From an uncultured Ignavibacteriota bacterium (GTDB lineage Bacteria > Bacteroidota > Ignavibacteria > UBA10030 > UBA8401): DNA of 64,000 nucleotides. The stretch spans positions 1-64,000 of the forward strand of contig CAIOTF010000031.1 of NCBI GenBank assembly GCA_903861125.1, written 5' to 3'. The notes beneath the pieces were generated by a model that saw only the letters and a list, made by a program, of their open reading frames with translations, was not told the DNA's origin and did not search any database. Below, in pieces: positions 5,617 to 56,801 of this stretch (position 1 is its first letter; each line of letters begins with the position of its first letter). Both the position numbers and the translations under genes were made by a program.

Positions 5617-5862
5617 GCACTTCTTTTGCGCCAACAAATATACATCCTGTTGATTCTATATTCATAACGGAGTACATTTGCCACACACAGAAACATTTTT
5701 CGTAGGCACTTGCTGTGAATTGGATACAGGGAACTTCGGTTTCATCATAATATCTTCCTTCTTTCCATCCACCGACACTGCAGGGAATAATAAATTCTGG
5801 TAAATCAAGACACAATCGTTTTGTTGAATTGTGTGGGTGCATATATTGTAGAGGAGTGCTGC
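5617..5862. other. Short intergenic stretch with a possible reverse-strand remnant
   Basis: On the minus strand an open frame runs through 5588-5935 and contains a Cys- and aromatic-rich stretch (for example GGWKEGRYYDETEVPC and YEKCFCVWQMY). It has no recognisable start, Shine-Dalgarno site or family, and it runs into both neighbours. It may be a relic of what truncated the lipoprotein gene, or chance. Confidence 0.2.
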
Positions 5863-7554
5863 ATGAGAATAGTATTGACGTTCGTATTGATAATGTTTTT
5901 GATTGACTGGAGTCTGTCACAGAATGTAGAATCATATGTGCGTTTCCGTGTTCGCGGAAATTCAGAATTACGAAAATTGTCGAACACAGTTTCCATCGCT
6001 GGTGTTGCAGGTGATACGGTCTTTACATTCGTGAGCGAGCTGGAGAAGTCCACATTGCAAGCGATGGGATATGTTCTTGAAGAACTTCCTTTGCCGGGAA
6101 GAATCGATCCGCACGTGATGGCGAAATCTCCAACGGAAATGACAGAATGGGACCGGTATCCAACATATCAAACGTATCTTGAGATGATGCGCAATCTGGC
6201 GATGCGGTATCCCGCATTGTGTCAATTGGACACGATCGGCTTGTCTGCGCAGGGCCGGTTGATCCTTGCATTGAAGCTCTCGAAGAATGTGGCGGTCCGC
6301 GAAGACGAACCGCAGTTACTCTACTCTTCATCCATGCACGGCAATGAGCTGACAGGGTATATTTTGCTTCTTCGTCTGGCTGAGTATCTTCTTTTTAACT
6401 ATGGAAGAGTAACCCCCGAAGCAATGCGTGCCACCGCGCTTTTGGATAACATGGAGATATTTCTCAATCCGCTCTTTAATCCGGACGGCGCATACAGACT
6501 GGGCGGGGACACAACCATCAGCAACGCAACGCGTGGCAATGTGAACGGGGTCGATCTGAACAGGAATTTTCCAGACCGTATCTCCAGTCCATCCAACGGC
6601 ACGCGTAACCGTCAGCCGGAAACCGCAGCTATGATGCGGTGGACATTCAAACATAATTTTTCCATCTCGGCAAATTTTCACGGCGGAGCCCTGGTAGCAT
6701 TGTATCCATGGAGCGCCGGCGTCCCAAGCGGGGAGTATGCCGCCTGTCCAGACGACAAGATTTTCATCTATCTTGCCAAAGTCTATGCAACTCAAAATCC
6801 AAACATCGTCCGGGGCGGTTTTAAGGATGGCATCTCCAACAGCTGCGATTGGTACGAAGTGCTGGGAGGACGGCAGGACTGGATGTATGTCTGGCAGGGA
6901 GGTCATGAATTAACAGTAGAAGTGTCCAACCAATACATTGTTCCTGATTCACTCCTTCCTTCTTTCTGGAACAATAACAAAGAATCGATGCTCGCCTATC
7001 TTGAGCAAGGATTTAAAGGAATCCGCGGACGTGTTACCATTGCCGGCGGTACACCGGTGAAAGCGTTCATCAATATTCTTGAAATTCCGGGCTCAACTGT
7101 CTACTCGGATGCCTCCGTCGGAACATTTCATCGTCCTCTGCTTCCAGGAACGTATACGTTTATCGCAAGTGCTTACGGGTATCAAAACGATACAGTACGG
7201 AATGTCGTCGTTACAGATTCCGGTGCTACCAGAGTGGATGTTGTTTTGCAGTTGGTCACTGATATCGGTAATGTGACTCCGAAATTTCCCGCGAGATATT
7301 CGCTGGAACATAATTTTCCAAATCCCTTCAATCCGTCCACAACAATTCGTTACTCTCTTCCGTCATCCGCAAAAGTAAAACTTGCCGTTTACGATCTGCT
7401 CGGGCGCGAAATTGCAACACTGGTGAACGAAGAACAGAGCGCCGGTTGGAAAGAAGTGCAGTGGAACGCTGCATCTTTGTCGAGCGGGATTTATTTTTAC
7501 GAACTGACTGCGGGCACTTATGTTGAAGTGAAGAAATTAGTGTTGTCGAAATAA
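5863..7554 (+). CDS. Secreted M14 zinc carboxypeptidase with T9SS sorting domain
   Basis: The frame is open from 5821, but the ATG at 5863 has GAGGAG seven bases upstream and gives a signal peptide (MRIVLTFVLIMFLIDWSLSQ), so I start there (563 residues). Zinc ligands are in HGNE (H159, E162) and FHGG (H273). The substrate motif GVDLNRNF (about 229-236) and the catalytic Glu in TVEVSN (E353) are intact, so it should be an active M14 metallocarboxypeptidase. A carboxypeptidase-regulatory-like beta domain follows (about 385-470, IRGRVTIAGG to VVLQL). The C-terminus is a T9SS sorting domain with NFPNPFNPSTTIRYSL and SSGIYFYEL. Predicted role: extracellular trimming of C-terminal residues from peptides, attached to the cell surface. 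It is monocistronic as far as can be seen. It is distinct from the second M14 protein at 49.1 kb, which lacks a signal. Confidence 0.93.
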   Translation: MRIVLTFVLIMFLIDWSLSQNVESYVRFRVRGNSELRKLSNTVSIAGVAGDTVFTFVSELEKSTLQAMGYVLEELPLPGRIDPHVMAKSPTEMTEWDRYPTYQTYLEMMRNLAMRYPALCQLDTIGLSAQGRLILALKLSKNVAVREDEPQLLYSSSMHGNELTGYILLLRLAEYLLFNYGRVTPEAMRATALLDNMEIFLNPLFNPDGAYRLGGDTTISNATRGNVNGVDLNRNFPDRISSPSNGTRNRQPETAAMMRWTFKHNFSISANFHGGALVALYPWSAGVPSGEYAACPDDKIFIYLAKVYATQNPNIVRGGFKDGISNSCDWYEVLGGRQDWMYVWQGGHELTVEVSNQYIVPDSLLPSFWNNNKESMLAYLEQGFKGIRGRVTIAGGTPVKAFINILEIPGSTVYSDASVGTFHRPLLPGTYTFIASAYGYQNDTVRNVVVTDSGATRVDVVLQLVTDIGNVTPKFPARYSLEHNFPNPFNPSTTIRYSLPSSAKVKLAVYDLLGREIATLVNEEQSAGWKEVQWNAASLSSGIYFYELTAGTYVEVKKLVLSK

Positions 7555-8050: not shown

Positions 8051-11000
8051 ATGAAATTCTCAATAGTAATGTGGTTATCGCTTTTGCCGTTTGTGTCTGC
8101 CGTTGCGCAGACTTCTTCCGCATATCAGGTTGATACTTATCCCGTTCCGAAAGACAGTCAAGTAGTTACAATTCATCTCTCAAAAAATTTTATTATCCCG
8201 GGAACCATCGCCGTTAAATGTGATTCAATATCTCTTTATGCATTCACTTATCACAAAGAATCTAGTTCTATTGTTATAACGCTTGATTCGACAATCAATC
8301 ATCCGTCTGCGATCTATGTTTCCTATTCATATTTTCCTTTCAATCTTAAATCGTCGTACAACCTCCGTACGCTCGTTTTTAAAAACGATACTGCCAATAC
8401 AAAAATAAATCGTGCCGTTGTCGTGCAGTCGGAAGGGATCTTCAATAATATGTTCGGTCCGGAATTATCAAAAAGCGGTTCGATCAGTCGCGGATTTCTT
8501 GTCGGATCAAATCGTGATCTTACATTAAGTTCCGGATTCCGTCTGCAGATGGCAGGAAAAATATCCAGTGATATAAATATTCTTGCCGCACTGACAGATG
8601 AAAATACTCCTATCCAACCGCAAGGGAATACGCAAACATTGCAGGAGATCGACAATGTTTTTGTAGAAATAAAAAGTCCGGTGTATACTGCTACGTTGGG
8701 TGATTTTCAGTTCAGCTCAAAATCAGGGGAGTTCGTTAACATCAATCGGAAATTGCAAGGGGCAAAAATATTGGCGGAATATCAAACGATCACTCCGCAA
8801 TTACAGCTGCAAGCGACCGGTGCAACAAGCAGAGGAAAATTTAACACGAATGCATTTCAGGGGATCGAAGGTGTACAGGGTCCGTATCGCTTGACCGGAA
8901 AAAACAATGAACGTTCAATCATAATTATTGCCGGGAGTGAAAAGGTTTATGTAGATGGGGAAGTTATGGTGCGGGGTGACAACAATGATTATTCAATCGA
9001 GTATGGTTCTGCGGAAATAACATTTTCCGCTAAAAAACTAATCACCGGAGCGTCACGGATCGTAATAGATTTTGAGTATTCGGACAGGCAATACACGCGC
9101 AATTTTGCAGGCGTAGATGCTTCCGGCAAAATATCAGATAATTTTATTTTCCGAACAAATTATTTTCGGGAAGGAGACAATCCGGATGCTCCGATCGACA
9201 TTTCATTGAGTGATGCTGATAAGGCGATTCTACGTAAGGCTGGAAATTCTACGGCATCAAAATCAGGTGTTTTATTCGTCGGAACTGATTCACTCGGTAT
9301 CGGAAAAGGTAATTATACTGCTCGCGACACTATAATTTACTTTGATACGTTACGCATATATCAATTTTTGCAGAATACACCGGCATCACAATATAATGTG
9401 GTATTCACTACAGTAGGCCAGGGAAATGGCGACTATGTTCGCGAAGGTATAGGAAGGTACAAGTTTGCAGGAATAAAAGCGGGGCAGTACGCACCTGTTA
9501 TTATTCTGCCGGGAGCTCAGTTGCATCAAATGTTTTCCGTTGGGACATCTGCGACACCTGTTGCCGGTCTTACTATTGATGCTGAATTTGCTGCAAGTAA
9601 ATTTGATCAAAATAGATTTTCTTCAATCGGCGATAATGATAATAGCGGAAAGGCAATAAAGTTTTCTGCTCACTACAATCCGAAAAAGATAAAAATTGGT
9701 AATGCTGAGATTGGCAGTATCGATCTTGCATTCTTCGAACGTTACAAAGAGAATAAATTTTTACAGATTGACAGAACTGATGCAGTTGAATTCGGTCGGA
9801 AATGGAGTACCGACAGTCTGTTGTCTGGCACTTCAGCGGACGAAGAGATCAGAGAAGGAAAAATATCTTATTTCCCGACAGATATGATCACACTTTCAAC
9901 CGGGGTTGGTACTCTGGAAAGAAAGGATCAATTTTCATCCCTCCGGTATGACGGACTGTTTGAAATCAAGAAAAAAGATTATCCATCCTTTTCGTATTAT
10001 ATCGAAAACATTGCCGGAAAGGAACGGATTCTGCGGATATCAAATGACTGGCTGCGGCAAAAAGGTTCAACGGAATATTCATACAGCAACATTACCCCAT
10101 CGTTCCGTTATGAAAATGAACAGCGCGAAGTTAAGGACGATCTGACCGATTCTCTGGGTTTGTCCAGTTACGCATTTAGCGCATACGTCCCCAAATTGTC
10201 TATCACTGGTTTGTACGGCGTAGATGGGTCCTCAGAATTTGAATGGCGTAACGATGATGCACCTGTAAAAGGAATTCTGAATCCTCAGTCGAACTCTTTT
10301 ACGCAGAATTATTCGGTATCGATCCGTGAAGTACACAATTTTTCCGCATCAACAATTCTTACGTTTCGCGAGAAACTGTTCTCGAAAGATTTTCAGGCAA
10401 ACAATATCAATCAGCAGACAACATTGATCAAAGTACAATCGCGCTATAGACCGTTTTCGCAAGGATTGGATGTAGACCTTTTCTATGATGCTGCAACGCA
10501 ACGTACGGCTAAGTTGGAACGCGTGTTCTACAAAGTTCGCAAAGGGGAAGGACAATACGTATGGAACGATGCGAACGGAGACGGCATAGTTGATTTGAAC
10601 GACGAACGCGAATTCAGTCCGGACCGGTATGATGGTGAGTATATTGCAATAACGCTGAACAGTGATGCACTGATCCCGATTATCAATCTGAAAGTATCGT
10701 CAAGAATCAGAATAAATCCCGGTCGCTTTATGCAGTCACCGAATTCTGTGTTTGAAAAAACATTGTCGATTATTTCAACTGAAACATATTTTCGTTTGGA
10801 AGAGAGGAGCACTGAACCTGATACAAAAAAGATATATTGGCTTAATATGAAATCCTTTCTCAATGCAGCCACAACACAAGTGGGATATCAATTTATTCAA
10901 CAGGACTTGTTCCTGTTTGAATACAATCCGGATTATTCCTTCCGGTTCAGGTTCAATCAACGGAACGGGTTGAGTCAATTTGCATCAGGAATGGAAATGA

Positions 11001-11533
11001 ATTATTCACGAGAGCGTTCAATTCGTTCTCGATTCCAGATTGCTGACGAAATCTCAAATGAAACGATTGTGATTCTAAAAAATGATAATGCTGTTTCGTC
11101 GTCAATGATAAACAGGTCAAGACAGATAGCAAATATTCTTCTGTCAACCGATCTGTCGTACCGACCTGAAACAAATATTGAAGTCGGTTTCAAGATAGAA
11201 ACAAGTCAGGCGGAAGATCGGGAAAGTAAGGAACCGGTTCTTGCAGATTATAATGGACAAACAATCAGGGTTGTTTATGGATTTTTAGGAAACGGACAAA
11301 TCCGTTCAGAAATATCTCGCGAAGAAGTACTGATCGGCAATCAACCAGGAGGGTATATCTTGCCGTATGAATTGACATCTGGCAGAGACTTTGGAAAAAA
11401 TTTTCTATGGAGTTTATCATCGGAATATCGAATGGGTGGTAATGTCCAATTTTCTCTGCAATATTCCGGAAGAACAACGTCCCGATCGTACGTGGTTCAT
11501 ACCGGTAAAATGGAGGTTAGGGCATTTTTTTGA
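8051..11533 (+). CDS. Large uncharacterised outer-membrane beta-barrel-like protein
   Basis: 1,160 residues with a signal peptide ending near FVSAVAQ. No catalytic domain is recognised. The N-terminal part contains the stretch SISRGFLVGSNRDLTLSSGF, then LQMAGKISSDINILAALTDEN and TPIQPQGNTQTLQEIDNVFV. I know these from a conserved but uncharacterised family of long Bacteroidota proteins. An EF-hand-like DANGDGIVDLNDERE occurs near residue 845. The last ~300 residues alternate polar and aromatic residues like transmembrane beta-strands (for example FRFRFNQRNGL and NVQFSLQYSGRTTSR). Predicted location is the outer membrane; function unknown. The ATG at 8051 has no good Shine-Dalgarno site: GGAGG lies about 36 bases upstream and no other in-frame start fits it. 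Alternatives would be a surface beta-solenoid or a large porin-like assembly protein. Confidence 0.75.
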   Translation: MKFSIVMWLSLLPFVSAVAQTSSAYQVDTYPVPKDSQVVTIHLSKNFIIPGTIAVKCDSISLYAFTYHKESSSIVITLDSTINHPSAIYVSYSYFPFNLKSSYNLRTLVFKNDTANTKINRAVVVQSEGIFNNMFGPELSKSGSISRGFLVGSNRDLTLSSGFRLQMAGKISSDINILAALTDENTPIQPQGNTQTLQEIDNVFVEIKSPVYTATLGDFQFSSKSGEFVNINRKLQGAKILAEYQTITPQLQLQATGATSRGKFNTNAFQGIEGVQGPYRLTGKNNERSIIIIAGSEKVYVDGEVMVRGDNNDYSIEYGSAEITFSAKKLITGASRIVIDFEYSDRQYTRNFAGVDASGKISDNFIFRTNYFREGDNPDAPIDISLSDADKAILRKAGNSTASKSGVLFVGTDSLGIGKGNYTARDTIIYFDTLRIYQFLQNTPASQYNVVFTTVGQGNGDYVREGIGRYKFAGIKAGQYAPVIILPGAQLHQMFSVGTSATPVAGLTIDAEFAASKFDQNRFSSIGDNDNSGKAIKFSAHYNPKKIKIGNAEIGSIDLAFFERYKENKFLQIDRTDAVEFGRKWSTDSLLSGTSADEEIREGKISYFPTDMITLSTGVGTLERKDQFSSLRYDGLFEIKKKDYPSFSYYIENIAGKERILRISNDWLRQKGSTEYSYSNITPSFRYENEQREVKDDLTDSLGLSSYAFSAYVPKLSITGLYGVDGSSEFEWRNDDAPVKGILNPQSNSFTQNYSVSIREVHNFSASTILTFREKLFSKDFQANNINQQTTLIKVQSRYRPFSQGLDVDLFYDAATQRTAKLERVFYKVRKGEGQYVWNDANGDGIVDLNDEREFSPDRYDGEYIAITLNSDALIPIINLKVSSRIRINPGRFMQSPNSVFEKTLSIISTETYFRLEERSTEPDTKKIYWLNMKSFLNAATTQVGYQFIQQDLFLFEYNPDYSFRFRFNQRNGLSQFASGMEMNYSRERSIRSRFQIADEISNETIVILKNDNAVSSSMINRSRQIANILLSTDLSYRPETNIEVGFKIETSQAEDRESKEPVLADYNGQTIRVVYGFLGNGQIRSEISREEVLIGNQPGGYILPYELTSGRDFGKNFLWSLSSEYRMGGNVQFSLQYSGRTTSRSYVVHTGKMEVRAFF

Positions 11534-45912: not shown

Positions 45913-46187
45913 TATGCCTTTATCTTGAAATTAATAAATAAATTATGTGGATTGTTCCATTCAACAATGACATCTTCAACAACTGAAAATTTTGGACCGG
46001 TGCGTAGATCAATCAGCAGATTGTCGATGCTCTGCTTGCTTCCCTCCACTTCCAAATATACAGACCCCTCGGGCAGATTTTCTACAAAACCTTTAAGATT
46101 GTGTGTCCTGGCTGCCCTGTCGGCAAACCAGCGGTAACCGACTCCCTGCACAATTCCTTTTACCGTGATCTTTGCATTCGAATCCAT
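45912..46187 (-). CDS. acyP: Acylphosphatase
   Basis: 91 residues, the usual size. It hydrolyses the carboxyl-phosphate bond of acylphosphates. The active-site loop [16 protein letters not shown] (Arg in YRWF) and the Asn in [17 protein letters not shown] are both conserved. It shares one base with the EamA gene upstream and one with ispF downstream, so it is translationally coupled. Confidence 0.95.
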
Positions 46188-47077
46188 TATTCTTCTGCCG
46201 TCTGTAATTTGTTGCCGACTTTGTCGATGATAATATCAAGAAATTCTGAAATTAAAATTCCGGATACGATAACCACGGCACCTATGATTCCTGTCATACC
46301 GAGAATTTCGCCAAGCGCAAAATATGCCAATACCGCTGCAATCACCGGTTCGATGGTAAATATAATCACGGCGCGTGTCGGTGTCGTGTCCTTTTGAAAC
46401 CGCGTTTGAACATAAGTAGAAAATACAGTTGCACAAATTCCCATATAGATTAATGAAAGCAGTAATAATGTTGTTGGTACAAATACTATCTGTTCGAACG
46501 TCACTGCACATGCTGCAATGATTGTTGTTACAGCCACTTGAATAAATGCAAGATGAAGAACATGTTCATTCTTGGAATATATATCTAGATACACGATATA
46601 GACTCCAAAAATAAACGCCGATATCAATACTAAAATGTCGCCATAATTAATCTCTGAACCTGAGGGTGATGTTAATAAATACAAACCATACGTCACGATA
46701 ATTATACCAATAATATTTCCCAGTTTTGGCGGTCTCCGTTCCAGAATTAACTGCGCTATGGGAGTGAATATCACCATGAGTCCTGTGATAAATGCCGATT
46801 TAGAAGCTGTCGTTTGGTATATCCCAAAATTTTGGATAAGAATGCCAACTCCGAGCATGATCCCGAGAATTAGTCCTTTTTTTACTGTCTGATACTGAAT
46901 GTGCTTAAGTTGTTTGAACATGAGCAGTCCAAAAATCAGCGCTCCAATGCCAAACCGCAACGCGATGAACAATGATGGAGATATATTTAAAGAACCGGCT
47001 TTAACGACAACGAACGTACTCCCCCATATGAAGGTTGTTGAAAATAATGCAAGTTCTGCTCTGCTTCTTGTTGTCAT
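46187..47077 (-). CDS. EamA-family (DMT superfamily) transporter
   Basis: 296 residues with ten predicted membrane helices in two EamA repeats (about 1-135 and 145-285). The first begins ALFSTTFIWGSTFVVVKAG; the second repeat includes GVYIVYLDIYSKN and TTPTRAVIIFTIEPVIAAVLAYFALGE, a family hallmark. It would export or exchange small metabolites at the inner membrane; no substrate can be assigned. It overlaps the SDR gene upstream by 4 bases. Confidence 0.92.
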   Translation of the reverse strand: MTTRSRAELALFSTTFIWGSTFVVVKAGSLNISPSLFIALRFGIGALIFGLLMFKQLKHIQYQTVKKGLILGIMLGVGILIQNFGIYQTTASKSAFITGLMVIFTPIAQLILERRPPKLGNIIGIIIVTYGLYLLTSPSGSEINYGDILVLISAFIFGVYIVYLDIYSKNEHVLHLAFIQVAVTTIIAACAVTFEQIVFVPTTLLLLSLIYMGICATVFSTYVQTRFQKDTTPTRAVIIFTIEPVIAAVLAYFALGEILGMTGIIGAVVIVSGILISEFLDIIIDKVGNKLQTAEE

Positions 47078-47814
47078 TTGAAATTCAATTTTTTTACTAT
47101 CGACTCAGGGATCATTGTAAAGATGAGCATTATGTATCTCCAGAACCATCTTGAATATATGAAATCTTTTCCAGATTGTTGTGCAGTGAAAATATCATGA
47201 GCTACTTCATCCGGTTTTGCTGTAATGAAAGAGGATGTTTTCCTTCCTTCGATCATCTTCGTCCTGATATATCCCGGGTGAACAGTCAGAACCTGCACAT
47301 TGAATGGGTACAATCTATTGCGTAACCCTGATAGGAAAGCGGAAAAACCTGCTTTTGCACTTGCATAGATATAATTGCTTTTCCTTCCCCTTTCTCCGGC
47401 GACAGAACTGACACCGACAATAAAACCTTCTTTTCTTTTTTCTAAGTCTAATGCAGCTATATGCACAATTGAAACAAGTCCTGTATAGTTGGCATCTATC
47501 ACATCTTTAGCTTCAAGAAAATACTGTTCGGACCGTTCTTGCACTCCCAAAGCACCGGCAAGGCAAATGATGCCGATCGGTTTCTCCGGCAACGAGTCAT
47601 AGAACTGCTGGTGTGTTTTGGTCTCACTTACATCGAAACGGAATGCGATCGCATCACTATTGGACCGATGCTTTAGTTCAATGACATCACTTTCCAGTTT
47701 TTCAATATTGCGGCTTGCAAGATATAAACCGTAACCGGCTTTTGCATAGAGATGTTCAAGCGGTAAGGCAATATCGGAACCTGCACCTATGACTAAGATA
47801 AACTTCATCGTCAA
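47074..47814 (-). CDS. Short-chain dehydrogenase/reductase (classical SDR)
   Basis: 246 residues. The NAD(P)-binding motif is GAGSDIALPL (10-19), a variant of TGxxxGIG; residues ILVIGAGSD fit the DprE2-like and similar SDRs. LAGALG replaces NNAG, the catalytic Ser is in VGVSSVAGERG and the YxxxK is YIYASAKAG. The C-terminal hydrophobic stretch (about 225-246, YIMLIFTMIPESIVKKL) may touch the membrane. The end overlaps EamA and the start overlaps the ATP-grasp gene, both by 4 bases. The substrate is unknown. The setting in a glycan-type cluster makes a sugar or polyprenyl-sugar reductase plausible. Confidence 0.88.
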   Translation of the reverse strand: MTMKFILVIGAGSDIALPLEHLYAKAGYGLYLASRNIEKLESDVIELKHRSNSDAIAFRFDVSETKTHQQFYDSLPEKPIGIICLAGALGVQERSEQYFLEAKDVIDANYTGLVSIVHIAALDLEKRKEGFIVGVSSVAGERGRKSNYIYASAKAGFSAFLSGLRNRLYPFNVQVLTVHPGYIRTKMIEGRKTSSFITAKPDEVAHDIFTAQQSGKDFIYSRWFWRYIMLIFTMIPESIVKKLNFK

Positions 47815-49013
47815 TATGATGGTCTTTCTTTTGGCGGTGATGATGTGAAAAAGTCACTGTAGAAACGATCGGTATAATTATTGAGCAATTTCTCGATCCG
47901 CTCATACTTCGGCGATGTCACGACCAGTCCAGCATGGAATTCTTTTTTAATCTTCCAGAAAATTTCAGCATCATTGTATGAAGACATATCCGGCCATTGC
48001 TGCTTTGCCAAAGAGACCATCAATCCCGCATAATGTTCTCTTGATGGATGCGGCGAATATTGAGTTACATTGTCTGCAGTTTCTAGTTTAGCCCATTCTG
48101 CCCAAAGATTCATTCCTGTTGCACCTTCTATCAGTTCAATGATATGCGCGCCTCCGACACGGGCAGATGTTTCGAGAAAATATATTTTTCCATCATCATG
48201 TGCTTTAATGTATTCCGTGTGAGAAACACCTTGAAGTAAACCTAACAGAGGTAGGACTGATCGATTCAATTTTTGCAGAGCAGATTCATCTTCGCTCCCG
48301 CGCTGGATCGTCCGAGTCATGAACACTCTACCTTCATGTGAGACTTCCATCGGCGGTAACCCGTATTGACTGACAATCGAGAACAGCACCTGTTTGTTCG
48401 CCAAAATACTGTCCACATGAAAAATATCCCCGGGAATAAATTTTTCCAGAAGAAAGAATGACTGCCGGTCTCCCAATTCATCAATTTTCCTCCATAATTC
48501 TTCCGCAGTATGAATCTTGATAATGCCTATTGCACCGGCAGAAAGACGCGGCTTGAGAACATACGGAGGAGGAACGACAGCAAGAAATTCTCTGATGCGG
48601 TCATAATTCAATATTCCGACAAAATCCGGCACTTTGATATTCGTATCTCTGGCTTTCATCCTCATGGCCAGTTTATCACGGAAATACCTCGCAGTTGTTT
48701 CACCCATGCCGCCAATACGGAGATGTTCCCGAAGAGTAGCAGCTTTTTCAACATCAAAATCGTCCAACGCAACAATCCGGTCGATCTGTTCTGTGCGTGC
48801 AAGATAACTAACGCCGTTTATGACATCGGGCATATGCCATTCTTTGTTAATGTCAGGAATATAATAAACGGTATCAATATGATCTCTCGGCCAGTCAGCA
48901 TATTCCAGACTTTTAGATGTCAGCAATAGTACTTTCCAACCTTCCCGTTTTGCCTGTCGAAGAAATTCCTGACCTTTTTCGTAACTTGAAATACATAAAA
49001 TAGTTTTAGCCAT
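47811..49013 (-). CDS. ATP-grasp ligase of unknown specificity
   Basis: 400 residues from the ATG at 49013, which has AAGAGA upstream; a further ATG at 49040 lacks one. The N-terminal Rossmann-like preATP-grasp domain (about 1-110) is followed by the ATP-grasp fold: YVLKPRLSAGAIGIIKI (near 165-181), FFLLEKFIPGDIFHVDSIL (near 195-215) and the metal-binding end IYFLETSARVGGAHIIELIEG (near 290-310). The fold resembles carnosine synthase/BtrJ-type enzymes that join a carboxylate to an amine. No partner defines the acid or the amine. It sits between an SDR and an M14 peptidase in one transcript. Confidence 0.88.
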   Translation of the reverse strand: MAKTILCISSYEKGQEFLRQAKREGWKVLLLTSKSLEYADWPRDHIDTVYYIPDINKEWHMPDVINGVSYLARTEQIDRIVALDDFDVEKAATLREHLRIGGMGETTARYFRDKLAMRMKARDTNIKVPDFVGILNYDRIREFLAVVPPPYVLKPRLSAGAIGIIKIHTAEELWRKIDELGDRQSFFLLEKFIPGDIFHVDSILANKQVLFSIVSQYGLPPMEVSHEGRVFMTRTIQRGSEDESALQKLNRSVLPLLGLLQGVSHTEYIKAHDDGKIYFLETSARVGGAHIIELIEGATGMNLWAEWAKLETADNVTQYSPHPSREHYAGLMVSLAKQQWPDMSSYNDAEIFWKIKKEFHAGLVVTSPKYERIEKLLNNYTDRFYSDFFTSSPPKERPSY

Positions 49014-49085
49014 GCGATCTCTTAATGATATTATCGACATTAATAAAATAGTGCGAATCTATTTACAGCTATTATGTTATAGTAA

Positions 49086-50756
49086 TCAGATCATACGGAA
49101 TATTGGATATTTTTTTTCGTAGTTATCAAAATACTGTGACCTTTGGTAAAAAAAATCCAACCGTGATTCAGGGTCGTTCCGGAAAGCTTCATTCTGCAAT
49201 TGATCAAAAAACATTCTTCTTAAATGTTTATCCGAAGCTAGCATCTGCTGTGCAACCGGATCCATAATGTATGGTTCTGCATATTCTTTACGTTCAAAGA
49301 ATGCATTGAAAAAACCCCAACTAACGAATGAATCAGGTGCTTCTGGTTCAAGAAGATTCATTATAACACGAAGTGTTCGTTGGTGGGCCGGGACAATAAA
49401 TGTACCTTTAGGGAACGTACATGTAGTTCTAATAGATCGGCATTTCACCTCTACACAATATCTTCCTTCATACGGCTTTTTTGCGAACGTTGACTCGTCA
49501 AATTGGTATTGTTCCACTGAAAGTCTTTTTTGAGTTGTTATTTGTTTGATTTTTATACCGTGGAGTTTCAGTATGTCGGCAATATACCCAAACTCCTTCG
49601 GTAGGACATACGCTTTGGGCACCTTCAAAGACTTAGTCGTCCGGACAATGTCGAATAATGGAATTTCAAATTCGCATGGTTTCGCGGTATAACGAACAAC
49701 ACTATCGCCAGTGATAGAACTATGCTCGTAAAATGAATTAAACCCTTTGAATTTAACCAACTTAGACTTCCCTGTTAACTCAAAACTTATCGGCAATGAT
49801 TTTAATTTTTTAGCCTCTGCATCCGCTATCCGGTTCAATTTTTTCAATACCTGAAAATGAATATTTAAAAATTCAAGCGCCGCAACATTCATGGCCAATG
49901 TTGATCGGACGCGGTTTTCATACGGTTTCAAAGAATGAGTCTCGACCAGTAAACCAAGTCTGTTTTGAACCGAAGTGTATCCGGTGGAAAGTCTCGGCAG
50001 CATTGGGGTATCTACAATTCCGTTTTCAAGGTTTCTCGCCTTCATTTCAATATATTGCGCAGTTAAAAATCCACATTTTTCGACAGCATTCAAAACGAAC
50101 GGTATGAATTTGTTCTTTCCCCATTTTCCTAATTTTGCATCAATATTGTTAAATCTTTCCAGTGCATATGTGATATGATACTGATAATCCGCACCGTTTG
50201 TAGTGTGATTGTCAATAAAGAAATCGGGCAGCCATGCATTGAAAAGTTTCAGGAAAGCCTTGATTTCAGGTGAATCTGCTTTCATGTAATCACGATTTAG
50301 ATTCAGGTTCCTGCTGTTCGTCCTCCACCCCATCTCCACAGGACCATTTTGATTGGGACGATTGTATTGACTAATACGTTCATGACCATCCACACTAAGA
50401 ATCGGGATAACAAGAAGGATCACATGGTCAAGAAGATGTTCCTTTTCCCTGGTGACAAGGATATCGCGCAGCAAGATCATACATGCATCTTTTCCTTCGA
50501 TCTCACCGGCGTGAATGCCGTTTTGTATGAGTACGACAGCTTTTCCACTCGCTTTGGCTTTTTCGGGAGTGAATTCTTCCCCTTTTGAAATAACAATGCA
50601 TTCAATTGATCGACCTTGCGGTGATGAACCGATTGAAAACATTTTTGCATACTTCGAATGGACGGTCATTTTTTTGAAATATGCCATAGATTCATTGTAA
50701 CGCGGGGAACTGACGAATCCCGACTTCTCAAAATGTGTGATCCAAGTAGATTTCAT
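49086..50756 (-). CDS. M14-family zinc carboxypeptidase-like protein without signal peptide
   Basis: 556 residues. Zinc ligands are H82 and E85 in IHAGEIEG and H184 in DNHTTNG; the catalytic Glu is E272 in LLVETHSLKPYENRV. Substrate-binding motifs RTNSRNLNLNRDYMKADSPE are present. The C-terminal 260 residues are an extra region without a known domain. No signal peptide or sorting domain is visible, so the protein is probably cytoplasmic, unlike the secreted M14 enzyme at 5.9 kb. The end is 72 bases upstream of the ATP-grasp start, and the start overlaps the double-SDR gene by 4 bases. A role in removing amino acids from a peptide-like product is possible, but unproven. Confidence 0.9.
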   Translation of the reverse strand: MKSTWITHFEKSGFVSSPRYNESMAYFKKMTVHSKYAKMFSIGSSPQGRSIECIVISKGEEFTPEKAKASGKAVVLIQNGIHAGEIEGKDACMILLRDILVTREKEHLLDHVILLVIPILSVDGHERISQYNRPNQNGPVEMGWRTNSRNLNLNRDYMKADSPEIKAFLKLFNAWLPDFFIDNHTTNGADYQYHITYALERFNNIDAKLGKWGKNKFIPFVLNAVEKCGFLTAQYIEMKARNLENGIVDTPMLPRLSTGYTSVQNRLGLLVETHSLKPYENRVRSTLAMNVAALEFLNIHFQVLKKLNRIADAEAKKLKSLPISFELTGKSKLVKFKGFNSFYEHSSITGDSVVRYTAKPCEFEIPLFDIVRTTKSLKVPKAYVLPKEFGYIADILKLHGIKIKQITTQKRLSVEQYQFDESTFAKKPYEGRYCVEVKCRSIRTTCTFPKGTFIVPAHQRTLRVIMNLLEPEAPDSFVSWGFFNAFFERKEYAEPYIMDPVAQQMLASDKHLRRMFFDQLQNEAFRNDPESRLDFFYQRSQYFDNYEKKYPIFRMI

Positions 50757-52792
50757 CGTATTGGAAAAAAAGGTTCAATATCTTTTTGAAAATAGGTGAA
50801 TGTATCGATCGGATCATATCCAAAATCACGTATGGCAGCGCTATGTTCTCCGGCAATATCCTTATTGAACTTACCTGCTGCGTGAACCGTTGCATTAAGT
50901 AGTCCAAACTTTCCAAGTAGGATGTCAGCGAGCGAAAAGATCGAACTGACAATATTCGGAACATAGAACGGCCGATAATGTTCCCCTATTTGCTTTGCCA
51001 TAGACTGAAAGATTTCATCGACTGTTGTAGCATAATTCTTATCGGAGATCCAGTACCATTTCCCGACAGTTGCAGCACTCTTTTCACATTTAATAAATGA
51101 CTGTATCACGTTGTCAATATGTGTAAGACTACGATAATTTCTACCATTACCAAAAATGATCTGACGTTTCCACTTCATCATCTCGATCAGACTTCGATTT
51201 CTTTCCGGCATGTGAGGACCAAAGAACCAAAATCCTCTTAAAGATGTCCCTTCAATGAAACCTTCACGGGTCTTATCGAGGATGTATTGTTCTGCCAAAT
51301 ATTTGCTCATTCCATAATTCTTATACGGACGTGGAACAGAGTTCTCATCAAATATTCTTTTCTCCCGTCCAAACCCGCAGATACTGTCGGTTCCCATGTA
51401 AAGAATTCGTTTCACTCCATGTTCAATGCAGGAATCAACAAGATTTTTCGTTCCTTGCCAATTTACGTCGTACAATGTTTTTATTCTTGAAGGATAAATA
51501 ACGCCGGCACAGTGGTAAACAACTTTAACGTCTTTCAATACGTCGGATAATGTCTCCTTATGCTGAAGATCGCCATAGACTATTTCGAAATTCTTAGGAA
51601 GATCAAAACGCAGACCGCTAAATGCCGGTAACACAAGCAACCGCACTTTCCTGTCTACAGCATAATTGCCGCTGTGATCACCGTTCATGCACACATCGAC
51701 CATTCTATTCGCAAGCCATCCTGGAAATCCTGTAATTAAGAGCAGATCCTCATCGGCATATTCTTCCCTCACTGTTGGTTTGTTGTCAGGTTGCCACAGG
51801 ATATCACAAAGTCCCGATAGATTATAGCGTACTTCTTTTACACCTTCGGTCAAACTCACGTGAAGCGAAGGAATGGAATACCCGAGTTCTTGTATTGCTT
51901 TTGATGAATCATACCAGCTATATTTTCCAATGATTGATCTTACATACTTTGGATCAATCGGAGACTTTTTACCCAACACCATTTTCAAGAGTACTGCTCC
52001 GGCAACCATAACCCATTTCGGTATTTTAATTTTCGGCACTGTCCGTTTGTTGATCACAGCCAAGTGTGAATACAGATCAAAAAATGTTGTATTGACACCT
52101 CCGAGAAGATATTGTCCCTGCGGCTTTCCTTTCATCCACGCGTTCACATGACCTTTGGCAACTTCACGCACATCGGCAATTGATATGCCTCCGTCGAAAT
52201 GGAACAGCTGTCCTTTTGTAATTGCATTTCGAATGATCACGTGTGGCGGCGTAAATTTTACATTGTGAGAACCAACGACCCATGAAGGATATATTCTACG
52301 AATATCATATCCCTGATCAATGACGGATTTACAATATTCTTCCGCGAGGATCTTTCCTTTTACGTACGGACTTTCAGGGGAAAGATTTTTATTCTGTTCA
52401 GTGATAAGAATCTTTGGATCAGATGAACGTCCTAGTACAACAACAGAACTAGTATAGATTATCGTTTTAATACCGGACTCTCGTGCCGTGTTGACAACTT
52501 TCTGCGTCAACGAAAGAGTGTTTTGGATGACCCTTGTTTCATCGGAAGTATCGGTTGTATTCTCCGCCGCGAGATGGAACAAAGCCGACGCATGATCAAG
52601 AACTGTCCGGTATGATTCCGGTTTGAATAGGTCCGCTTCGTGTGCAACGGCGCCTTGTAATCTGAGGATCTCTATATTCGAGTTCCTCTTCCGGATCAAT
52701 AAATGAACATCAAATCCAAGATCGCATAGATGTTTAGCGACATGAAAACCGATATGGCCCGAGGCTCCGGTAACAATGACTTTTTCTTTCAT
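50753..52792 (-). CDS. Fusion of two extended-SDR (NAD-dependent epimerase/dehydratase) domains
   Basis: 679 residues made of two extended SDR domains. Domain one (1-330) has the nucleotide motif VTGASGHIGFHVA (6-18) and the catalytic YVKGK (YxxxK). Domain two (about 345-679) has the altered motif ITGFPGWLANRM, in which the last Gly of GxxGxxG is Ala, and catalytic YGMSK. CGxIYPSRIK-type residues (CAGVIYPSRIKTLYDVN) resemble sugar-nucleotide epimerases or 3-beta-HSD-like enzymes. Both domains keep Tyr and Lys, so two successive redox or epimerisation steps are possible. A weakened second cofactor site is also possible. The gene is directly after the DPM1-like transferase. Confidence 0.9.
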   Translation of the reverse strand: MKEKVIVTGASGHIGFHVAKHLCDLGFDVHLLIRKRNSNIEILRLQGAVAHEADLFKPESYRTVLDHASALFHLAAENTTDTSDETRVIQNTLSLTQKVVNTARESGIKTIIYTSSVVVLGRSSDPKILITEQNKNLSPESPYVKGKILAEEYCKSVIDQGYDIRRIYPSWVVGSHNVKFTPPHVIIRNAITKGQLFHFDGGISIADVREVAKGHVNAWMKGKPQGQYLLGGVNTTFFDLYSHLAVINKRTVPKIKIPKWVMVAGAVLLKMVLGKKSPIDPKYVRSIIGKYSWYDSSKAIQELGYSIPSLHVSLTEGVKEVRYNLSGLCDILWQPDNKPTVREEYADEDLLLITGFPGWLANRMVDVCMNGDHSGNYAVDRKVRLLVLPAFSGLRFDLPKNFEIVYGDLQHKETLSDVLKDVKVVYHCAGVIYPSRIKTLYDVNWQGTKNLVDSCIEHGVKRILYMGTDSICGFGREKRIFDENSVPRPYKNYGMSKYLAEQYILDKTREGFIEGTSLRGFWFFGPHMPERNRSLIEMMKWKRQIIFGNGRNYRSLTHIDNVIQSFIKCEKSAATVGKWYWISDKNYATTVDEIFQSMAKQIGEHYRPFYVPNIVSSIFSLADILLGKFGLLNATVHAAGKFNKDIAGEHSAAIRDFGYDPIDTFTYFQKDIEPFFPIR

Positions 52793-52795
52793 GAA

Positions 52796-53527
52796 TTAGA
52801 GTTCAATTGAACGGAATCTGATCCTGCGTAGAAAGTAATACAGCAACGTTGATATTGAATTCCTGATTGAATTCGACGATACCCTTGGTGACGGTGCGAC
52901 ATAATGGATAGGTATCTCAGTGATCCTTCTTTTTCTCAATAAATAGCGAAGTTCGGTCTGATAGAAATGTGCTTTTGAACGGAATGGATAATTGATGAAA
53001 TTGCCGACGACATCCCTATGAAATCCCTGAAAACCGGATGTCATATCCTTCAATTTTGTCCCTAATAAAATGTTCGCAAGGAATGTACCGGCTTTAGAAA
53101 GGAACCAACGGTTGAACGGTGAACCGGTAATTGAACCGCCGTTAATGAACCGACTGCCGAATGCACACTCATTCCCCTCGTTTAATACACGAAGAAACAT
53201 AGGAATAGCACGCGGATCGTGCGATAGACCAGCATCCATTTCGATGATAATATCGTACCCCGCTTCGTACGCTACTCGCAACCCATTGATGTATGCATCG
53301 ACAACATTCTTATTTTGAGGACACCAGACCGTTTCGTAGCGGTGATTAATCTTCTGAAGGTTTTGACAAAGCTCGTATGTTTTATCTGTCGAAACTGAAT
53401 CAACAATAAAATAGACCTTTCCCGGATTCAATGTGTCCAAAACGAAGTTCATCCGTTCGATGAACGGCAGAAAATCATGTTCCTCGTTCGCCATAGGGAT
53501 GACAATCGCCCAATTTTTGTAATACAT
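52796..53527 (-). CDS. Family 2 glycosyltransferase (DPM1/polyprenyl-phosphate type)
   Basis: 243 residues. The N-terminal VIPMANEEHDFLPFIERM, FIVDSVSTDKTYEL, the DxD-like EMDAGLSHDPRAIPMFL and FGSRFINGGSITG are typical of dolichyl- or polyprenyl-phosphate mannosyltransferase-like GT2 enzymes. It has no strong C-terminal membrane pair. It probably transfers a sugar to a polyprenyl phosphate or to an acceptor glycan. A strong AGGAGG lies 17 bases before the ATG at 53527, too far for ideal spacing; an in-frame ATT would have ideal spacing of five bases. It is the first gene of the minus-strand run. Confidence 0.88.
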   Translation of the reverse strand: MYYKNWAIVIPMANEEHDFLPFIERMNFVLDTLNPGKVYFIVDSVSTDKTYELCQNLQKINHRYETVWCPQNKNVVDAYINGLRVAYEAGYDIIIEMDAGLSHDPRAIPMFLRVLNEGNECAFGSRFINGGSITGSPFNRWFLSKAGTFLANILLGTKLKDMTSGFQGFHRDVVGNFINYPFRSKAHFYQTELRYLLRKRRITEIPIHYVAPSPRVSSNSIRNSISTLLYYFLRRIRFRSIEL

Positions 53528-53616
53528 GCCGGTTAAAATAGATGCCTCCTAATGTTTTGTTCTTACGGTAAATTTAATTATTTTTTTCATTAATTACTGT
53601 AAAACATTGAAATATT

Positions 53617-54645
53617 ATGACCTTAGCCAAAACATCTCTGATCATTACCACAATTGGTTCTCTGAACAAAGCACTGAAAGAATTTGGGATGCTATGTTCA
53701 AAGAACGATGCTGAATTCATCGTCATCGGGGATAAAAAGACAACACCGGAACTAAGCGGACTGTTCTCTCGCTATCAGAAAGAACAGCAGTTCAAGGGAG
53801 GTTATTATACAGCCGAACAACAGCAGTTAATGCCATTTAAGATCGTCTCCGTTCTCCCCTACAACCATTATACCCGAAAAAATATCGGATACTTACTTGC
53901 GGTCAGGAATGGCGCCGAGATCATACTCGAAACAGATGACGATAATTATCCTCAGGGAAATTTTAATTTTCAATATTCAGAAATGGTTAATGGAAATACA
54001 GTATCGCACATAGGTTGGGTGAATGTCTATCGGTATTTCACTTCAGAACATATTTGGCCGCGCGGTTTTCCTCTCGACCTTATTACAACGGAGAACCCAA
54101 AACTTGGGGAATTGAAATCAGTTTATAGTCCTATCCAGCAATATCTCGCTAATAAAAATCCGGATGTGGATGCCGTCTACCGTCTTGTAATCAATAAAGA
54201 ATTGACATTCAATGATCTCGACCATAGTGTTGTGCTGAATCCGTATTCATGGTGTCCATTCAATTCACAAAACACGGTTTGGTTCAAGGAGGTTTTTCCG
54301 CTTCTCTATCTTCCGTCCACATGTTCGTTCCGCATGACCGATATTATTAGAAGCTATATTGCACAGAGAATACTCTGGACAATGGATGCACAGGTTAGTT
54401 TTGGTAATGCAACAGTGTATCAGGAGAGAAACGAACACAGTCTGATAAAAGATTTTCAGGATGAGGTGAGCGGATATCTGAATGACAAAAAAATAATTCA
54501 GATATTAACGAATGAAGAATTGAAAACCGGGAATGAGCATATACGGGAGAATCTGCTGCGCTGTTACAGGATACTGGTTGAAAAGAATATCCTGCAAAAA
54601 GAAGAACTTCCTATCGTAAATGCATGGATAGAAGATTTGTTGTAA
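53617..54645 (+). CDS. STELLO/DUF288-like glycosyltransferase
   Basis: 342 residues. The sequence FIVIGDKKT (about 34-42), YYTAEQQQ, LPYNHYTRKNIGYLLAVRNGA and ILETDDDNYP (about 108-117) match, from memory, the STELLO family of probable glycosyltransferases known from plants and nematodes and also found in bacteria. The acidic DDDN is the likely metal/sugar-nucleotide site. No signal or membrane segment is clear, so it should act in the cytoplasm. It is divergent from the DPM1-like gene with 89 bases between them. It has no obvious Shine-Dalgarno site. Confidence 0.8.
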   Translation: MTLAKTSLIITTIGSLNKALKEFGMLCSKNDAEFIVIGDKKTTPELSGLFSRYQKEQQFKGGYYTAEQQQLMPFKIVSVLPYNHYTRKNIGYLLAVRNGAEIILETDDDNYPQGNFNFQYSEMVNGNTVSHIGWVNVYRYFTSEHIWPRGFPLDLITTENPKLGELKSVYSPIQQYLANKNPDVDAVYRLVINKELTFNDLDHSVVLNPYSWCPFNSQNTVWFKEVFPLLYLPSTCSFRMTDIIRSYIAQRILWTMDAQVSFGNATVYQERNEHSLIKDFQDEVSGYLNDKKIIQILTNEELKTGNEHIRENLLRCYRILVEKNILQKEELPIVNAWIEDLL

Positions 54646-55066: not shown

Positions 55067-56734
55067 TTAGAACACTGCTTGTTCTTCGTAGATTCCGAAA
55101 TGTTCAATCAGTGAATTGCACATCTCACCGAGCGTAACATAATTTCTGGTAGCATTCAGAAGATGCGGCATCAGATTAGATCCGTCCGCAGCAGATTGCT
55201 TAAGCTCTGCAAGAGATTTTACAACCGCCTCCTGGTTTCTACTTTGATGAAGATCTGCAAGTCGTTTCCTTTGAAGTACTTCTACCTCCGGCGAGATAGA
55301 AAGGATAGGTATATCGATCTTCTCTCCCTCTTCAACATATTGATTCATACCTACAATCACCTTTTCTTTTTTGTCCAACTCGCGTTGGTAGCGATATGCT
55401 GCTTCAGCGATCTCGCGCTGGAAGAACCCTTGTTCGATCGCCGGAATGACACCGCCAAGCATTTCAATTTTTTCGAAGTATTGTTCAGCTTCCATTTCCA
55501 TTTTCGAAGTCAACGATTCTACGAAATAACTGCCACCTAATGGATCGACAATGTTCGCTACGCCTGTTTCATCAGCGATGATCTGTTGCGTTCTGAGAGC
55601 AATCTTGACCGCCTTATCCGAAGGAAGCGCAAGGGTTTCATCCATTGAGTTCGTATGGAGTGACTGCGTGCCGCCTAAAACGCCAGCCAGAGCCTGTATG
55701 GCAGTCCGAACGATATTGTTTTCAGGCTGCTGTGCAGTAAGAGTGCATCCGGCTGTTTGAGTATGAAATCGGAGGGTCCACGATTTTGGATTCTTTGCAC
55801 CATACTTGTTCCTCATCCGTTTTGCGTAAATCCTTCGCGCAGCTCTGAACTTAGCTATCTCTTCAAAAAAATCAAGATGAGAATTAAAAAAATATGACAT
55901 GCGAGGTGCAAAATCATCTACATCCATGCCTGCAGCAATTCCTGCTTCGATATAGGCAAAACCATCTGCTAAAGTGAATGCAAGCTCCTGTACTGCGGTT
56001 GAACCTGCTTCCCGTATGTGATAACCTGACACAGAGATAGGATTAAATTGCGGAAGTTCTTTCGTGCAATATTTAAACATGTCCGTAATGATCCTCATTG
56101 AGGGCTTCGGAGGATAGATCCACTCTTTTTGCGCTATATATTCTTTTAGTATATCATTCTGAATAGTTCCCTGCAATGCAGTCGATTTAAGTCCTTGTTT
56201 TTCACCAACAGCTATGTAAAATGCCAGAATCATTGCAGCTGGAGCATTGATCGTCATCGAAGTAGTAACCTTGTCGAGAGGGATTCCCTTAAAAAGAATT
56301 TCCATATCCGCCAACGAACTGACAGCCACTCCGCAGATACCTACTTCTCCTTCCGATAATGGGTCGTCAGCATCCCGACCCATCAAAGTTGGCAGATCGA
56401 AAGCAGTCGAAAGACCGGTCTGACCATGCTCTAAAAGGTATTTAAACCGCTGATTTGTATCCTCCGGTGTTCCGAATCCGGCAAACTGGCGCATTGTCCA
56501 CAACTTTCCTCTGTAACCGGAATTATGAATTCCACGCGTGTAAGGAAACTCACCAGGGAAACCGATATCGGACAGATAATTTATATCCGAAACATCTTCA
56601 GGTGTATATAATAATTCAACTGGTTTACCACTCACGGTTGTGAATTTTACATCCCTGACTTTGGCGGTTGCGGCCTTTGATTTATGTTTTTCAGCCGAGT
56701 CTTTGATTGCTTGCGGATCGTTGATTGTTCCCAT
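55067..56734 (-). CDS. Methylmalonyl-CoA mutase, large (catalytic) subunit without B12 domain
   Basis: 555 residues from the ATG at 56734, preceded by GGGGAG; the open frame continues 20 codons further up but that part is not needed. It isomerises methylmalonyl-CoA and succinyl-CoA. The TIM-barrel domain is complete, with [57 protein letters not shown] and [18 protein letters not shown]. The [17 protein letters not shown] motif and [16 protein letters not shown] are also present. The cobalamin-binding domain is missing, so a separate small subunit must exist elsewhere. It probably works with the carboxylase genes at 28-30 kb in propionate metabolism. Confidence 0.96.
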
Positions 56735-56801
56735 TGTAGCTCTCCCCGATAAGTTATATCGATTTTTAGAAATATTCGAATTGTCATCGAACATTCCTTA
56801 C

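Follow-up and report, generated by a model that had tools for sequence, protein, structure and literature searches.

A DprE-Type Polyprenyl-Phosphate-Furanose Operon with a Probably Replaced Front End in an Uncultured Ignavibacteriota Bacterium

What is made by a locus in which a STELLO-like protein, a GT2 glycosyltransferase, a double short-chain dehydrogenase/reductase (SDR), an M14 metallopeptidase-like protein, an ATP-grasp ligase, a classical SDR, and an EamA transporter are encoded side by side? The locus lies in a stretch of 64,000 nucleotides from an uncultured Ignavibacteriota bacterium (assembly GCA_903861125.1, contig CAIOTF010000031.1), which in its whole length we call the window. 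The original prediction, made from the sequence alone, had proposed a peptide- or amino acid-modified envelope glycan, with no part of the locus fitting a system that could be named. The latter claim fails, because sister genomes hold a DprE-type (polyprenyl-phosphate-arabinofuranose) operon in the same slot. We conclude that the locus is probably a polyprenyl-phosphate-furanose (DprE-type) operon whose front end has been replaced. This is a known kind of pathway with a new front end; the finding holds up and has become more specific than the prediction it grew from.

In published pentofuranose systems, the enzyme PPPRS makes polyprenyl-phosphate-ribose (polyprenyl-P-ribose) from phosphoribosyl pyrophosphate (PRPP), the sugar is then altered by DprE1 and DprE2 or by one SDR alone (ORF13), and the last steps fall to a flippase and a GT-C enzyme (PMC11127046).

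Results and Discussion

Sister Genomes Hold a DprE-Type Operon in the Same Slot

Which genes occupy this slot in related bacteria? We read 20 stretches around EamA and the methylmalonyl-CoA-mutase-type gene (MMCM), the two flanks of the locus, in genomes of the window's family. EamA had a match in 20 of the 22 family genomes at E ≤ 1e-60 and MMCM in all 22, in some through a paralogue only. Between the MMCM-type gene and EamA-ACYP-IspF, the sisters carry a UbiA-type PPPRS gene, in some cases M14 and ATP-grasp genes, and then DprE1 and DprE2. The PPPRS gene directly adjoins MMCM in nine family genomes; in two more, only a gene designated h126 lies between. The order in G480 (L185) is MMCM, UbiA, a 474-aa gene (DprE1), SDR, EamA, ACYP, IspF, and G487 (L186) likewise has MMCM, UbiA, DprE1, SDR, and EamA; G488 (L198) has UbiA, M14, ATP-grasp, a 438-aa gene (DprE1), SDR, and EamA. 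The G492 locus is spread over two contigs (L189/L190), one with MMCM, h126, and a cut UbiA gene and the other with a cut ATP-grasp gene, a 437-aa gene, SDR, and EamA; G491 (L199) shows MMCM, h126, UbiA, and a cut M14 gene. Four of the sister UbiA proteins score 268 to 283 bits against the NCBIfam model for decaprenyl-phosphate phosphoribosyltransferase (cutoff 234), and three of the 437- to 474-aa proteins score 412 to 453 bits against the NCBIfam model for DprE1 (decaprenylphosphoryl-ribose oxidase; cutoff 500). The ancestral operon was likely PPPRS-(M14-ATP-grasp)-DprE1-DprE2-EamA.

Another variant of the same locus occurs in G053, where the slot between MMCM and EamA (L188:7761-10774) holds PPPRS and a DUF362 gene, DprE1 and SDR not being seen there. 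A gene of the same size as this DUF362 gene stands beside EamA in L201-L203, where DprE1 and SDR were not seen either.

Three Genomes of One Genus Carry a Different Front End

How does the window depart from this arrangement? It is contig C31 of genome G000 (4.19 Mb in 54 contigs, completeness called 100%), and the whole block recurs in CAJBTU010000258.1 (L118), a contig of an uncultured Ignavibacteriae metagenome-assembled genome (MAG) that match positions identify as C258 of G495, a member of the window's genus (completeness 100%). The gene order of the two is the same (STELLO-GT2-double SDR-M14-ATP-grasp-SDR-EamA-ACYP-IspF-DedA), with best-segment protein identities of 81% for STELLO, 93% for GT2, 77% for the double SDR, 90% for ATP-grasp, 79% for SDR, 84% for EamA, and 70 to 72% for M14, which lies in two frames. 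In both, the STELLO-like, GT2, and double-SDR genes occupy the place of PPPRS, and ATP-grasp leads straight into the SDR gene, with no DprE1 between. A third genome, G494 (completeness 82%), has a cut GT2 gene, the double SDR, and M14 on one contig and the STELLO-like gene directly beside MMCM on another; its ATP-grasp-SDR junction falls outside the stretches seen. As a separate observation, the two frames of the G495 M14 gene (L118:3801-5466) result from a frameshift near codon 73, which may be a MAG assembly error or mark a pseudogene.

Are the missing enzymes encoded elsewhere in these genomes? A joined UbiA and DprE1 query was searched against 58 selected genomes: 22 from the family, 17 other members of the order, and 19 class members that carry the ATP-grasp gene. 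By hand count, 49 of the 58 have PPPRS (E ≤ 1e-20) and 16 contain a DprE1-like stretch, of which two are cut by contig ends and two have only 33% identity; PPPRS without DprE1 is common in this set. Neither enzyme was found in six genomes, namely G000, G494, G495, two 1.7-Mb genomes of genus g5, and G148. The three cassette carriers had zero PPPRS matches; the best DprE1 match in G000 has 26% identity over ~130 residues (E 1.2e-6), and G494 and G495 had none. Within the genus, GT2 orthologues occur in exactly three of eight genomes (G000, G494, and G495), and these are the three without PPPRS and DprE1; the other five have one or both. Genes have been exchanged in the slot, and PPPRS and DprE1 were not found elsewhere in the genome. 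PPPRS seems to have been replaced in place by the STELLO-like, GT2, and double-SDR genes and DprE1 to have been lost. We also note that in G486 and G109, of genus g5 in the same family (1.7 Mb), the searches recovered none of PPPRS, DprE1, and a GT2 orthologue.

How widespread are the individual parts? Among the 22 family genomes, GT2 orthologues (92 to 94% identity) were found in G494 and G495 only, all other matches reaching at most 33%. In a class sample of 149 genomes that includes G000, G000 was the single genome with a GT2 match at E ≤ 1e-30 and with a double-SDR match at E ≤ 1e-60 (seven candidates scored per genome listed), and it was again the only one with a double SDR among 395 phylum genomes at E ≤ 1e-50 (three candidates scored per genome listed). 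In the same class sample, ATP-grasp matches occurred in 26 genomes at E ≤ 1e-10 (23 at ≥47% identity), M14 in 56 (E ≤ 1e-20), SDR in 36 (E ≤ 1e-30), and STELLO-like proteins in 3 (E ≤ 1e-10). Two parts, GT2 and the double SDR, were thus found in the window's genus only and two are widespread; across the class, the six genes do not form a single conserved system. The original prediction had treated them as one unit; across relatives, ATP-grasp and M14 proved to be scattered, the outcome it had held would refute it, and GT2 and the double SDR were found in the three cassette genomes only. The arrangement was not described among the matches listed in a search of open-access literature in PMC (titles and abstracts).

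Candidate Functions of the Replacement Genes and the Retained SDR

What could the three replacement proteins do? The STELLO-like protein reaches the gathering score of the STELLO family (PF03385) over profile positions 1 to 102 of 387, and with phmmer it matches the structures of the GT75 mutase MtdL (7yua/7xpr, E 2.6e-25) over residues 6 to 303. MtdL residue numbers, taken from the available part of PMC9937993, were mapped by hand onto the MtdL alignment. MtdL residues T13, D109-D111 (the DDD motif), N112, R159, D195, S228-Q229, R257, D260, R289, and H292 are kept in the window protein as T11, D107-D109, N110, R149, D183, S217-Q218, R239, D242, R271, and H274, respectively; S86 and D87 have become H84 and Y85, and the metal ligand H287 has become Q269. 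The Gln269 position is also Gln in the homologues from G495, G494, Sphingomonas, Azospirillum, and G031 and is His in that from G146. Plant STELLO itself has a GT75-like region (according to the part of PMC4906169 available), and NDP-pyranose mutase activity is plausible for the window protein as judged from these alignments. STELLO/GT75-like proteins with 29 to 35% identity to it were also seen in Synechococcus phages and in a 735-kb record of an uncultured phage (PV340853, PV340852, MH412654, NC_048049, LR756501, and LR756503).

The GT2 protein has dolichol-phosphate-mannose (DPM) synthase as its best solved relative (PDB 5mlz, E 2.3e-19), followed by ArnC (E 1e-5), and on plasmids it had one match, of 29% identity, in a stretch without listed features. 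We propose that it is a polyprenyl-phosphate sugar synthase that may stand in for PPPRS. The double SDR has a YxxxK motif in each half (Y143/K147 and Y493/K497). Its HpnA-like N half is nearest to structure 3wj7, and its C half is nearest to NSDHL, MoeE5, and UDP-sugar 4-epimerases. A hopanoid (HpnA) assignment of the N half was rejected, with 241.7 bits under an NCBIfam cutoff of 367.65.

Searched against 72,556 plasmids, the C half had nine matches at E ≤ 1e-15, all of them rhizobial. Six of these loci were opened, and five have a UbiA gene upstream, with a small open reading frame (ORF) between in R. gallicum; by this context, relatives of the C half work with PPPRS-type enzymes. The sixth, from Mesorhizobium AR07, has no UbiA listed, an SMR gene and a second SDR near, and an IS21 element beside it. 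The whole double SDR matched 21 plasmid records, including 12 outside the nine of the C half, which stayed unopened. Rhizobial SDR1 shares 29 to 30% identity with the C half (E about 1e-44). In S. garamanticum, the UbiA protein, with HAD and UbiA domains, passes PRK08238 with 610 bits, and the SMR protein resembles ArnE at a score below cutoff. The rhizobial clusters (L234, L235, and L237-L240, from NGR234 and others) contain UbiA, two SDRs, an SMR transporter, and a GMC oxidoreductase, and most also a ~658-aa hypothetical protein (zero Pfam matches in L234); their UbiA is PPPRS-type where tested. This plasmid cluster is likely a pentofuranose-donor system.

The classical SDR is retained from the ancestral operon, in the DprE2 position. 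Against the DprE2 equivalog model it scores 162.9 bits (cutoff 250), and it is above the cutoff of PRK07102. We read 29 of the 35 SDR genes found in the class outside G000, with flanks of ≤1.5 kb, some cut by contig ends, and DprE1 adjoins the SDR in 20 of the 29 loci. Distances of the SDR to four outgroups are 0.348 in G000 and 0.338 in G495, compared with 0.288 to 0.307 in the four sisters of the genus whose SDR could be read, and EamA and IspF show no such excess in the same comparison. Five sites, including R17L, are changed in both G000 and G495. The excess hints weakly that the partner or substrate has changed. In the family genomes with an SDR among the genes read, EamA comes directly after it; EamA also persists without the SDR, as beside the DUF362 gene of G053, and is a candidate flippase for the lipid-linked sugar.

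A Proposed Pathway and Its Alternatives

How might these parts work together? On our best reading, a route to polyprenyl-P-furanose that ordinarily begins with PRPP is here supplied by a front end that depends on NDP-sugars. The STELLO/GT75-like protein would convert an NDP-pyranose to an NDP-furanose, GT2 would move the furanose from NDP onto polyprenyl phosphate, the double SDR would oxidize or epimerize the lipid-linked sugar, the retained DprE2-like SDR would reduce the ketone, and EamA or another carrier would flip the product for an envelope glycosyltransferase. We infer all substrates, the reaction order, the redox direction, and the flippase role. The full scheme, in which a GT75-like protein, a DPM1-like GT2, and NAD(P)-dependent epimerization on the lipid by the double SDR and DprE2 displaced the PRPP/PPPRS/DprE1 route in place, is one we advance tentatively, as possible rather than probable. 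The lipid-linked sugar and envelope role that the original prediction had sketched gains support from the DprE-type operon in the sister slot; its unnamed peptide-glycan system does not.

Several results weigh against an NDP-sugar front end on a DprE-type operon. The sister DprE1 proteins and the window SDR fall below the cutoffs of the DprE1 and DprE2 models, and what the ancestral operon made is thus known solely from homology and synteny. The metal-binding His287 of MtdL is Gln in the window protein and in five of the six homologues aligned, and that His, together with Arg257, is also missing from the inactive plant AtRGP5 (PMC9937993, available part). Predicted structures were too poor to use, both for the STELLO-like protein alone (mean predicted local distance difference test score 32.8) and for the double SDR with one relative (40.3). 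DprE1 was unseen within 1.5 kb in 9 of the 29 class SDR loci, including some whose flanks are complete and hold other genes, and the window SDR evolves only slightly faster than that of the sisters. A Pfam scan of 28 window proteins identified no GT-C acceptor enzyme, and no genome-wide search was made. Finally, the three cassette carriers all belong to one genus and are not independent cases. The MMCM tree needs two changes to account for them, placing the cassette-less G493 beside G000 and G495; one change is allowed by only 1% of bootstrap trees, although none of the well-supported branches rules out a single origin. In the trees of EamA and of the SDR, from both of which G494 is missing, G000 groups with G495, apart from G493.

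The chief rival to this scheme is a different final sugar. The cassette would make another lipid-linked sugar (e.g., a polyprenyl-P-hexose or -hexofuranose), the DprE2-like SDR would have been repurposed, and arabinose would no longer be made. In its favor, PPPRS and DprE1 were not found; both characterized bacterial members of GT75 act on GDP-L-galactose and GDP-L-fucose (PMC9937993, available part); relatives of the STELLO-like protein lie in polysaccharide clusters of Azospirillum (with gmd) and Sphingomonas; and the SDR is slightly accelerated, with its shared changed sites. However, the SDR keeps its YxxxK motif and its position, and the C half of the double SDR is related to SDRs of PPPRS-type clusters. 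We consider a different sugar unlikely.

Might the genes instead be chance neighbors, moved into a clade in which the DprE pathway had decayed? In favor of this, at the thresholds applied, neither GT2 nor the double SDR had an orthologue elsewhere in the class sample, and the phylum sample yielded no further double SDR either. Yet the new genes hold the PPPRS position beside MMCM or M14 in all three carriers, they are well conserved to G495, and their types suit polyprenyl-P-sugar chemistry, which makes coincidence improbable.

The ATP-grasp and M14 genes bear on the remaining alternative. ATP-grasp resembles L-amino acid ligase (PDB 4wd3, E 3.8e-21); against the alanine-anticapsin ligase model it scores below the cutoff (24.8 bits, cutoff 850). 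In M14, H82, E85, H184, and E272 are invariant in 16 of 16 aligned sequences, and we take them to be the zinc/catalytic residues. Neither gene occurs in the DprE operons of G480, G485, and G487, in which PPPRS and DprE1 adjoin. Inside PPPRS/DprE1-bearing operons, however, both are present in G488 and one or the other in G491 and G492; they therefore joined before the front end was replaced. Around the 22 other ATP-grasp loci of the class (L028-L049, some stretches cut by contig ends), none of UbiA, DprE1, and SDR was seen nearby; M14 adjoins ATP-grasp in G096, is 716 bp off in G146, and is one 584-aa gene off in G119. G096 and G146 hold the pair with DprE1 absent and PPPRS on another contig. 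ATP-grasp and M14 are a separate, older accreted module, and we do not count them as part of the sugar pathway. A peptide- or amino acid-modified envelope glycan, with ATP-grasp ligating and M14 trimming, would suit the ligase homology, the invariant putative zinc residues, and the presence of both genes in the window, G495, and G488 operons, but the operons without both, the class loci without sugar genes, and the pairs without DprE1 leave it the least probable of these explanations. In eight class genomes (L042-L049), a ~390-aa gene of one sequence cluster adjoins ATP-grasp, in the position that M14 has here.

Layout of the Locus and Other Features of the Window

ORF calling recovered all six genes and EamA where the original prediction had placed them, and Pfam agrees with each name (Table 1). 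The single overlapping minus-strand run it described, which together with EamA has the order GT2, double SDR, M14, ATP-grasp, SDR, EamA, is tight, with three 4-bp overlaps, although gaps of 45 bp (ATP-grasp/M14) and 3 bp (double SDR/GT2) interrupt it. GT2 and the STELLO-like gene are divergently oriented and separated by 89 bp. The TTG start of the SDR is doubtful: an ATG lies directly past the ATP-grasp stop, family orthologues align from that Met-Lys/Arg, and this ATG, near 47808, is more likely to be the true start. A promoter and terminator scan found sites no more numerous than in shuffles. GT2, the double SDR, and STELLO gave no composition-based signal of horizontal transfer, being not distinct from their neighbors in GC/GC3 (0.419/0.459, 0.415/0.384, and 0.399/0.420, respectively).

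Table 1. Genes of the locus and its conserved flank, in window coordinates
Feature	Coordinates	Strand	Remarks
STELLO-like, GT75-related protein	53617..54645	+	Pfam STELLO 51.2 bits (cutoff 27.8); proposed NDP-pyranose mutase or glycosyltransferase
GT2, dolichol-phosphate-mannose-synthase/ArnC type	52796..53527	-	Pfam GT2 57.5 bits; proposed polyprenyl-phosphate sugar synthase
Double SDR	50753..52792	-	N half HpnA-like, C half 3-beta-HSD/epimerase-like; proposed stand-in for DprE1
M14 metallopeptidase-like protein, passenger module	49086..50756	-	Pfam M14 66.8 bits
ATP-grasp ligase, L-amino-acid-ligase-like, passenger module	47811..49040	-	Pfam ATP-grasp_4 36.7 bits
Classical SDR, DprE2 position	47074..47814	-	PRK07102 282.3 bits (cutoff 267)
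EamA transporter	46187..47077	-	Pfam EamA 127 bits
Methylmalonyl-CoA-mutase-type gene (MMCM; named from sequence)	55067..56794	-	Conserved slot flank

Elsewhere in the window, an ORF near its edge (86-2842) has eight Listeria-Bacteroides repeats (Flg_new) and one InlB-B-like repeat. A second M14 peptidase (5821-7554) carries a regulatory-like domain plus a Por secretion tail and differs in architecture from the operon M14, and a 1160-aa ORF (8051-11533) had zero Pfam matches at E ≤ 1e-5.

Comparison with Known Systems

Why would a replaced front end matter? Polyprenyl-P-pentofuranoses supply mycobacterial arabinan and the decoration of pilin and O-antigen, and DprE1 is a flavin oxidase and a tuberculosis drug target. 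In this genus, other enzyme classes appear to have taken the place of the entry enzyme and of DprE1, while the last reductase was kept. If the product is unchanged, this would be a second solution to the same chemistry; if it differs, the locus would show a lipid-sugar operon changing its product through a swap of its front end.

Individual parts resemble known enzymes and depart from them. The STELLO-like protein shares with MtdL its homology over residues 6 to 303, the DDD motif, the nucleophile Arg, the base Asp, and the phosphate-binding Arg/His, whereas the metal His287 and S86/D87 are changed and a C-terminal stretch matches STELLO (PF03385). DPM synthase and ArnC are the closest solved structures to the window GT2 by sequence, yet this GT2 sits in a DprE-type operon in the place of PPPRS. 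The mycobacterial decaprenylphosphoryl arabinose pathway (Rv3806c, DprE1, and DprE2) has in common with the locus a DprE2-like SDR and, in the sister operons, the PPPRS-DprE1-DprE2 set; the window genome differs in that PPPRS and DprE1 were not found, and it has a DPM1-like GT2, a GT75-like protein, and a double SDR instead.

With the three-component pentofuranose systems (PMC11127046), the locus would share a polyprenyl-P-linked donor and SDR epimerases, and the C half of its double SDR is related to SDRs beside PPPRS-type UbiA on rhizobial plasmids. There, Citrobacter ORF13 is an earlier example of an SDR epimerase by which the lipid-linked pentofuranose is set. Those systems enter through PRPP and PPPRS, whereas the entry enzyme of the window is of the DPM1/ArnC type. 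PPPRS, which that text describes as without similarity to GtrB-type enzymes, was postulated there as the common entry of the pentofuranose systems surveyed (Kelly et al. 2024, PMC11127046); if the NDP-sugar route proposed here is true, it would break this postulate for such bacterial pentofuranose donors.

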